This document shows positions 15,830-18,200 of a stretch of 64,000 nt of DNA, piece by piece. The notes beneath the pieces are model-generated. The model had not been told where the DNA came from, did no database searches, and was given only the letters and a program-made list of their open reading frames with translations. The first letter of the stretch is position 1, and each line of letters starts with the position of its first letter. The position numbers were made by a program, and so were the translations under genes. The stretch is from Thermodesulfobacteriota bacterium (GTDB taxonomy: Bacteria; Desulfobacterota; Desulfobacteria; Desulfobacterales; JAUWMJ01). Location: positions 1-64,000 of the forward strand of contig JAXHVO010000035.1 in assembly GCA_034189135.1 (NCBI GenBank). Direction: 5' to 3'.

Positions 15830-15987
15830 TATGAAAATTAGAATTGATGGTAAGAAAGATCCCCCGCTCGGCAAAAGCTTTCTATCGTTGTGATGGTTAT
15901 TGATGCAAAATTTCTTGCTTGGTATACATTGTACTGTTTCTTATAAATTTTCATGCCCGACTAGACACAACGAAGCATGAAACCTAA

Positions 15988-16228
15988 GGTTTGACCGGCG
16001 AATCGCCTATGGGCCCGTTACTATACTTAACAATCCTATCTGGAAATGAACGTACGGCAGCTATCTCGCTTCAATTAGTTTTGAGCCAGCCCCAGGGGAC
16101 AGAATCCCACGGCAGCGTTGATCGCCTCTGCCTGTATGGGTTTAACTGAAAAGATAGGGGACCTGTAACATACCGATCTTATTTGTTAAGCATTGTAACG
16201 GTCCCATAGGCAATTCCCCGGTCGAACC
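15988..16228 (+). repeat. Hairpin element A (46-bp inverted ends, conserved core)
   Basis: Inverted ends at 15988-16033 and 16183-16228 match at 40 of 46 positions (outer end GGTTTGACCGGCGAATCGCC; inner end CTTAACAA). The 149-nt interior carries the core at about 16081-16160 that recurs in element B (segments CCAGCCCC, GGGACAGAA, GGCAGCGTTGATCG, CTCTGCCTGTATGG, TTTAACTGA and AAGATAGGGG). GGCAG/CTGCC within the core and CCTATCT (16035-16041) with AGATAGG (16152-16158) can pair. No open reading frame. It lies 72 bp before fmdE on the same strand, so it could be a 5' leader RNA, a small RNA or a non-autonomous mobile element. Confidence 0.75.
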
Positions 16229-16300
16229 GAGTTAAAATGAAAAAAAGTATGTTTGGTTCTAATGATGATGTTTCATTTTAAACGATAAAAGGTGGCGAGA

Positions 16301-16915
16301 ATGAATAATAAATCAATCAGTTCTGAATTGATCAAGGCAACCATCCGTTTCCACGGCCACTCCTGTCCCGGTCTGGCCATCGGCATCCGAGTATCGGAGT
16401 TGGTTATGGACAGATTCGAACGATCAATGGATGAAGAAATCGTTGCGGTGGTTGAAACCGATATGTGTGCCATTGATGCCATTCAGTTCTTAACAGGCTG
16501 TACCTTTGGCAAGGGCAACTTGATCCATCTGGATCATGGGAAAAGTGCCTTTACTTTCCACCACCGGAACAAAGGGGAGTCGATACGAATCGTTACCAGA
16601 CCGAACGCCGTCAGCGATCCCGACGATGCGCTTATCAATCTAAGGAAAAAGAAGGCGAAAGAAAAACTAACCCATGAAGAACAGGAACAGCTGAAAAAAG
16701 CCATGGCGGAGCGAATAAAAAAGATCATGGAGTTAGATCTTGATAAATTATTTGAAGTGAAACCGGTACAAAGCCACTTGCCCCGTAAGGCCAGAATACT
16801 GGAAAGTATCGCCTGCCAGGAATGCGGTGAAGCAACCATGGAGTCCCGTACCCGTCGCCTTTTCGGCCGAACGCTCTGCATACCCTGTTTTAATGCTGCA
16901 GAAAAACGTATTTAA
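16301..16915 (+). CDS. fmdE: FmdE-family protein with C-terminal zinc ribbon
   Basis: 204-residue FmdE (formylmethanofuran dehydrogenase subunit E-like) protein. The N-terminal signature FHGHSCPGLAIGIRVSELVMD with Cys/His residues is clear, as are AIDAIQFLTGCTFGKGN and DHGKSAFTFHHR. The C-terminal zinc ribbon is CQECGE...CIPC. In bacteria these proteins occur away from methanogenesis, often near molybdenum or metal genes, and their exact role is unsettled. ATG 16301 is chosen because AAAGGTGG lies upstream; an in-frame GTG at 16292 overlaps that site. It converges with ubiE. Confidence 0.85.
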   Translation: MNNKSISSELIKATIRFHGHSCPGLAIGIRVSELVMDRFERSMDEEIVAVVETDMCAIDAIQFLTGCTFGKGNLIHLDHGKSAFTFHHRNKGESIRIVTRPNAVSDPDDALINLRKKKAKEKLTHEEQEQLKKAMAERIKKIMELDLDKLFEVKPVQSHLPRKARILESIACQECGEATMESRTRRLFGRTLCIPCFNAAEKRI

Positions 16916-16960
16916 GCGTTCCTCGTCATCTGGGTTTACCTCCCGATTTGATGATTTACC

Positions 16961-17695
16961 CTAGATTTTTTTCGCCAGATGAATGACCGCTATGCCATTG
17001 GTGAGTTTTCGGTAAGTGACGTGAAAAAATCCAATGTCCTGGAGGATAGCCTTAAGTTCATAAGGTAAGGGAAAGGCTCGTATGGACTCTGGAAGGTGGG
17101 TGTAAGCCTGCACTGAACCGGTTATCGCTTTACCCAGCAGAGGAATCACCTGAAATGAGTAATAATTATAAAGCAGGCGAAACAACGGCGAGACCGGCTT
17201 GGAAAATTCCAGGCACATCATCTTTCCTCCTGGCTTCAAAACACGATACATTTCTTTAAATCCTGTTTTCATATCCATCACATTGCGAATTCCAAACCCC
17301 ACCATGGCTGCATCAAAGCTATCGTCTTGAAAAGAAAGTTGCTGAACATCTCCCTGAATATATTGAATACGCTTTCGCAGCGGCAAATTATTTTTTTTGA
17401 ACCTGCCTGCATTTATCATGGCTCTGGAAAAGTCATACAGGGTTACATCACCTTGCGGTCTCACGGCTTTGTCAGCCAAAACCGCAAGGTCCCCGGTACC
17501 GCCGCATACATCAAGAACCTTATCCCCGTCATTTAGGCTCAGCATGCGAACCGCTATTTTTTTCCAGATATGATGAATTCCAAAGCTTAACAGGGTATTC
17601 ATCATATCATACTTTAGCGCTACTGAATTAAAATAGCCGCGAATCAATCGGGACTTTTCCCGGGTGTCGATTGTGTTGGGGTCAAATTTTGCCAT
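16961..17695 (-). CDS. ubiE: Demethylmenaquinone/2-polyprenyl benzoquinol methyltransferase
   Basis: 244-residue UbiE/MenG methyltransferase, which carries out the last (C-methylation) step of menaquinone synthesis. Visible signatures: YDMMNTLLSFGIHHIWKK, motif I VLDVCGGTGDLAVL, VGFGIRNVMD and the family end LEFSKP...YNYYSFQVIPLLGKAITGS. In a sulfate reducer the product would be menaquinone (menG function). The gene is alone on its strand; a hairpin element (17850-18091) lies 154 bp before its start in the same orientation. Confidence 0.92.
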   Translation of the reverse strand: MAKFDPNTIDTREKSRLIRGYFNSVALKYDMMNTLLSFGIHHIWKKIAVRMLSLNDGDKVLDVCGGTGDLAVLADKAVRPQGDVTLYDFSRAMINAGRFKKNNLPLRKRIQYIQGDVQQLSFQDDSFDAAMVGFGIRNVMDMKTGFKEMYRVLKPGGKMMCLEFSKPVSPLFRLLYNYYSFQVIPLLGKAITGSVQAYTHLPESIRAFPLPYELKAILQDIGFFHVTYRKLTNGIAVIHLAKKI

Positions 17696-17849
17696 ATTTT
17701 ATTCAGGACCCGATGAGGTGGCAAAGGCTGCCTGCTTGGAAACCTTTCTGCCAGCAGAGGAATGAGTATAATCAATTGGCTGAGGGTTCGGTAAGTTCCT
17801 TATCCATAGCCTTTTTTGTGAACCGTTTGAGCTTTAATATTTGTTAGTG

Positions 17850-18091
17850 GTTCATCCGCAGAAGCGCCCATTTGCCCGTATCAGCCTTAACAAATAAAAC
17901 CAGCACTCTGTACACGCCCCCTATCTTCTCAGTTAAATCCATACAGGCAGAGACGATCAACGCTGCCGTAGGGTTCTGTCCCTTGGGGCTGGTTCAAATC
18001 GAATCTCAGTCCGCCTAGGCGGACCGAACGCCAGTTTCTCGAAATCATTGTTACGGCTGATACGGGCAAATGGACGCTTCTCCGGATGAAC
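17850..18091 (-). repeat. Hairpin element B (44-bp inverted ends, conserved core)
   Basis: Inverted ends at 17850-17893 and 18048-18091 match at 41 of 44 positions (outer end GTTCATCCG, inner end TAACAA). Their sequence is unrelated to the ends of element A apart from the innermost TTAACAA/TAACAA. The 154-nt interior, read on the minus strand, contains the same core as element A (about 17905-17990), including GGCAGCGTTGATCG and AAGATAGGGGG, plus an extra palindrome GTCCGCCTAGGCGGAC. It lies upstream of ubiE on the same strand. Different outer stems that each keep pairing imply selection for the hairpin. Confidence 0.75.
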
Positions 18092-18200
18092 TGAGTGGGA
18101 ATTAAAAAAATCCCCGATCCCTCAAATTAGCTAATGCGATGTCCCAGTTTGACTAAAAGAGGCCGGGGTTGTTCGGGTTTAAAGTCGTGGGCGGTCCAGA

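Follow-up and report, generated by a model that had tools for sequence, protein, structure and literature searches.

The inverted terminal repeats of AAV carry an asymmetric insert within a palindrome, and this insert occurs in two orientations, flip and flop, at equal frequency. These repeats form the ends of the viral genome and flip through hairpin replication. Among bacterial MITEs, the Correia/NEMIS, ERIC and RU elements are small, intergenic and dispersed, with terminal inverted repeats, target duplications and the potential to form long hairpins (PMC2229807). The template-switch evolution of inverted repeats and quasipalindromes has been traced both in coding genes of yeast and in RNA genes. 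There, template switching homogenizes the arms of an inverted repeat and inverts its spacer (PMC8604942); it can also yield compensatory changes, and consistent mutation patterns have been reported in RNA genes (PMC8794818).

The two hairpins described here lie in a window of 64,000 nt, the whole stretch of DNA that was analyzed, from a genome of the order Desulfobacterales. They resemble the Correia/NEMIS, ERIC and RU elements in being small, intergenic and dispersed and in their potential to form long hairpins, and the second of them also in its terminal inverted repeats and target duplication. They differ in that the hairpin lies inside outer ends distinct from it, surrounds a core whose conservation spans the order and reaches further, and occurs in different outer shells and in both orientations, with arms that are unrelated between bacterial families. 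Arm homogenization, compensatory double changes and spacer inversion recall the template-switch systems, whereas in the present material the process seems to operate over about 100 paralogous copies and several bacterial families, and clustered multi-base changes are missing. The likeness to AAV flip/flop lies in an asymmetric insert that occupies a palindrome in two orientations.

With a probability of about 0.72, we consider both hairpins to be copies of a MITE that carries a flip cassette, whose arms exchange sequence at the DNA level and whose core sometimes inverts. Such a cassette would consist of a conserved core of about 147 nt between two long inverted arms, enclosed by outer transposon ends. 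Covarying stems are usually read as functional RNA; here, the covariation bears marks of DNA copying, a practical reason for caution when new RNAs are sought through covariation. Taken together, the many copies of a single genome and the related ones from other families form a large natural data set, and they offer simple controls, namely wobble bias, transversion-type double changes, spacer orientation, and comparison of arms with outer repeats.

Two hairpins within larger units

The original prediction placed one hairpin at 15988–16228 and another at 17850–18091. Both are real, and their predicted folds are far more stable than those of shuffled sequences (z of −7.2 and −10.0, respectively; 0 of 200 shuffles as good). 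They share an inverted core of 94 nt with 88% identity (16074–16167 versus 17911–18004), and the genes between them are, as described at first, convergent and of the FmdE and UbiE types (the latter a UbiE methyltransferase) by Pfam. This adjacency is not special, because the genome holds about 100 copies. The initial boundaries proved too narrow: both hairpins lie inside larger units that have outer ends of their own. The first unit, designated A-type, is composed as follows.

15941–15987, plus strand: left outer end (F1 type), TTATAAATTTTCATGCCC...GCATGAAACCTAA, common to about 45 places in the examined loci of the source genome
15988–16033, plus strand: left arm, 46 nt, 87% complementary to 16183–16228 and homologous to the arms of other copies
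16034–16182, plus strand: spacer with the conserved core, strongest at about 16051–16165 and in plus orientation (core alignments A1–A3, models R1 and R2)
16183–16228, plus strand: right arm, pairing with the left arm
16229–16270, plus strand: right outer end (F2 type), diverged here, its outer limit uncertain and close to fmdE

The F2-type end is common to about 44 places in the examined loci of the source genome. A-type elements have conserved F1 and F2 ends, without a clear terminal repeat pair or target duplication, and their outer shell differs from that of the second unit. The latter, designated B-type, is a 342-bp MITE (17782–18123) with outer inverted repeats of about 20 bp and an 8-bp target duplication, inside which the hairpin lies.

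17774–17781, no strand: left target-site duplication (AATTGGCT), 7/8 match to 18125–18132 with one extra base allowed at the right junction
17782–17849, minus strand: long outer end, starting with the terminal inverted repeat (GAGGGTTCGGTAAGTTCCTT), from the terminal-repeat scan
17850–17893, minus strand: arm, 44 nt, 93% complementary to 18048–18091
17894–18047, minus strand: spacer with the core at about 17910–18032 in minus orientation; this copy has the GGTCCGCCTAGGCGGAC palindrome variant
18048–18091, minus strand: other arm, pairing with 17850–17893
18092–18123, minus strand: short outer end, with the terminal inverted repeat at 18104–18123, from the terminal-repeat scan
18125–18132, no strand: right target-site duplication (AATTAGCT), the counterpart of AATTGGCT

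The arms had been described as unrelated in sequence. This holds between bacterial families but not between the two window copies, whose left arms are identical at 30 of 44 positions, whereas 1000 shuffles averaged 21.8 and never exceeded 29; intermediate arm sequences are present in other copies. Within the spacer, at 18004–18032 of the window and at the same place elsewhere, some A and B copies have GCAGCTATCTCGC swapped for a short palindrome, TCCGCCTNAGGCGGA or TCTGCCTGAGGCAGA.

A dispersed family and the presumed mobilizer of its B shell

Searches with blastn and the core motif located the roughly 100 copies, which are dispersed over the 4.63-Mb assembly of the source genome. The alignment used below comprises 109 units; almost every one belongs to this genome, and the few others come from the same genus. 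Arms and outer ends distinguish two main subfamilies, A and B, between which intermediates occur. None of the 86 analyzable copies lies inside a long ORF, and copies are commoner between convergent than between divergent genes (29 versus 12, p = 0.012), counts that are approximate because ORFs were called mechanically.

Most B-type elements measure 336–343 bp and have GAGGGGTCGGGGAGTTTTTC terminal repeats of about 20 bp and an AT-rich 8-bp duplication. With small offsets allowed, the duplication matches at 7/8 or better in 31 of 49 full-length copies; a control with right flanks reassigned at random from copy to copy gave 6%. Insertion polymorphism at orthologous sites in sister species was seen in both directions: one element of the source genome (L052) has no counterpart between the two corresponding genes of either G001 or G002, and one element of G001 (L064) is missing at the matching place in the source genome. 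These empty sites are not base-exact, since the intergenic flanks have diverged. Core-deleted forms also occur in both subfamilies (L141 in B; L171, L172, L173 and L179 in A), and the 156-bp L141 form from G002 keeps perfect arms and the 8-bp duplication. B-type elements combine terminal repeats, a fixed-length duplication, insertion polymorphism and ends common to an autonomous transposon. The mobile character of the family is well supported, and both hairpins are best read as members of a MITE family, dispersed and non-autonomous. The original prediction had proposed either a structured RNA or such an element with a conserved RNA core; the mobile element is supported and the core is indeed conserved, while an RNA nature of the core stays hypothetical.

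Among 389 genomes searched within the order, 75 carry the B terminal repeat. In two of them, G360 and G327, an insertion sequence shares the terminal repeats of the B-type MITE (C/GAGGGGTCGGGGAGTTT) and, in G327, is likewise flanked by an 8-bp duplication (AACTAAGT). It differs from the MITE in its length of 1140–1152 bp, in having two ORFs (118 and 217 aa), and in that no hairpin cassette was noted in it (coordinates, L271 434–1573 and L279 1501–2652). Similarity to IS1182/IS5-family transposases is weak, every profile score lying below its curated cut-off (PF13751, 20.8 bits versus 25.1; IS1182, 29.9 versus 270). Because the larger transposase ORF was not detected in the source genome (95.5% complete, 140 contigs) or in its two sister species, we infer mobilization in trans: the B shell, which has GAGGGGTCGGGGAGTTTTTC ends and duplicates 8 bp of target, probably owes its movement to a DDE insertion sequence that shares these ends.

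Copies of the presumed mobilizing transposase in G222 (L346, L349 and L350) and G147 (L347) have internal stops or are fragmentary, which suggests that the autonomous element is decaying. Among the genomes searched, G067 has the most B-type terminal repeats (123, or 64 + 59; L283 and genome-wide count), and the TTTTTT variant accounts for most of the listed ones.

A core shared among families and its orientation

When 389 genomes of the order were searched with a covariance model of the core, 13 proved to contain it; a second draw of 389, overlapping widely with the first, yielded 17 with an enlarged model. A draw across the phylum added two further genomes, from one family outside the order. 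The core of about 147 nt is thereby known from seven or more families within the order and from that one outside it; copies per genome are lower bounds, as few candidates per genome were scored. The description of the core as conserved was therefore right, since it exists far beyond the source genome. Near-invariant across families are ACGGCAGC, CAGCCCC, CTCTGCCTGT and GGGGGCGT. Within the source genome, identity is 0.86–0.90 in the central 80 nt, 0.81–0.83 in the outer flanks and 0.75–0.79 at the core edges.

In nearly all examined copies, the core is framed by arms of about 36–67 bp that match within the copy, a few copies (e.g., L241, L326, L340 and L341) being without matching arms by this measure. 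Among copies passing a 75% filter, the arms are 88–97% Watson–Crick paired by family, and arms of different families are often only 0.1–0.5 identical. The outer ends that accompany the core are of three types or more: B repeats in G026, G187 and G211, A-like ends in G147, and TTATTACTCCGGCAA in G126 and G203. A 19-mer scan of 84,980 genomes returned no true member except CSMAG_1936, the remaining hits being chance matches; the core motif was not found in IMG/VR, and blastn gave no match of a B element to plasmids or of an element of family f30 to phages.

Relative to the asymmetric outer ends, the core takes both orientations at similar frequency in the source genome (A, 16:15; B, 17:24) and in G001 (6:5). 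Both orientations also occur in family f30 and, by inspection, among the copies of G126 and G203. From these mixed orientations among copies we infer spacer inversion; no flip was caught within a strain.

Because the core is conserved, it should have some role in the spread of the element. Its presence in several transposon shells across the phylum, beside a freely changing stem, is a testable, unexplained feature. One tentative interpretation, which we think rather unlikely, is that the hairpin cassette forms an independent genetic entity: some factor of the host or of the transposon would recognize the core within a hairpin of DNA or RNA, any pairing arms would suffice, and the cassette would have passed from one transposon shell to other, unrelated ones throughout the phylum.

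Three other ideas about the core were considered. A pseudoknot of GGCAG/CTGCC with CCCC/GGGG is possible, but the positions concerned are nearly invariant and hence uninformative. A coding core was dropped because alignment inspection showed that the reading frame is not kept between families. The TTAACAA/TTGTTAA motifs at the inner arm ends raised the possibility of an integron attC site, but the dispersed location of the copies and the lack of the motif in other families led us to reject it.

Pairing of the arms and its possible causes

Each arm matches its own partner at 0.95–0.97 and the partner of another copy at 0.79–0.81. Where both were compared within single B copies, the match was 0.81 for the outer repeats and 0.96 for the arms (p = 6e-7); the latter value refers to the best-aligned stretch and favors the arms somewhat, and fixed-window counts agree. 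The arm match is not lower in copies with a decayed target duplication. Over 3566 arm pairs, the mismatches comprise 75 G–T, 70 A–C and 108 others (G–T versus A–C, p = 0.74), and a second count without gaps, within the own family, gave 22 G–T and 41 A–C; no excess of G–T was seen in any of seven families. Neither count shows the G–U excess expected under selection on one RNA strand. The 109-unit alignment shows strong covariation in the arms. Comparison of nearest copies yielded 114 double changes, 63 transition-type and 51 transversion-type, a spectrum the same as that of the single changes (81 and 52; p = 0.44). These double changes are unclustered, with adjacent runs at the shuffled expectation, and long copied tracts are consequently not seen.

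Changed sequence with kept pairing had been taken as a sign of selection on structure, a reading that the data do not support. If the element were a structured RNA, the whole hairpin would be transcribed, and the stem would be kept by selection on RNA pairing. The very stable predicted folds, the strong covariation of the arms and the conservation of the core across the order and one family outside it are what such an RNA would offer, and 12 hand-picked core pairs, above all an xACG/CGTy helix, exceed shuffles, although they were chosen after looking at the data. The unbiased pair scan of the core (Neff 46), however, found no coherent helix and almost no covariation, consensus folding likewise showed almost no covariation, and neither window element matches Rfam at gathering or relaxed thresholds; the original prediction had recognized no Rfam class either. 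Together with the lack of a G–U excess over A–C mismatches in every family, the 51 transversion-type changes among 114 and the near 1:1 orientation of the core relative to the outer ends, these results make selection on an RNA unlikely. Selection could instead act on a perfect DNA hairpin or cruciform, which would leave arms paired without G–U bias; mobility would then require a perfect single-stranded hairpin, for instance as a substrate of a recombinase or of replication, and unpaired copies would not spread. Near-perfect arms in every family despite unrelated sequences, and the perfect arms of the core-deleted L141, agree with this. Selection at the time of spread, however, leaves unexplained why arms still match in copies whose outer repeats and duplications have decayed, and why the core is oriented at random; moreover, a double-strand DDE transposon is what the outer repeats and duplications point to. 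We regard this explanation as distinctly improbable.

The kept pairing is best explained by copying between the arms at the DNA level, a conclusion that is fairly well supported. After insertion, the arms would exchange sequence through replication template switching or recombination within the hairpin, so that a new mutation is copied to the other arm and the core is now and then inverted; arms could thereby drift freely yet stay paired, and core orientation would become random. Template switching is consistent with arms that resemble their own partners more than those of other copies, to a degree that other parts of equal age do not reach, and with spacer inversion as judged from the copies. 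Its signature of clustered multi-base changes is missing, and copying at single sites fits the double-change data. Very similar traces would be expected if the arms recombined with each other. A dedicated recombinase that flips the arms or core as a phase switch would also account for a core orientation near 1:1 and for a conserved core sequence, but arms wholly different between families would be hard for one recombinase to handle, about 100 copies sit in unrelated intergenic places, and no recombinase was recognized among the tested genes beside the two window copies. Site-specific inversion is therefore very improbable.

Two minor observations concern related palindromes. A second dispersed palindromic repeat, TATACCGCTTGCCATAAATATG...GTGGTTGTAGAAAAAAACGTTTCGATAACGGAACGTTTTTTTGACAACCACTATAG, lies beside the arms of some copies (L048, about 1400–1530; L137, about 2270–2390; parts in L112 and L130), and its ends resemble the A-type F1 end. 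A very short palindrome at about 3032–3094 of L158 consists of little beyond two B-type terminal repeats and the outer tips of the arms.
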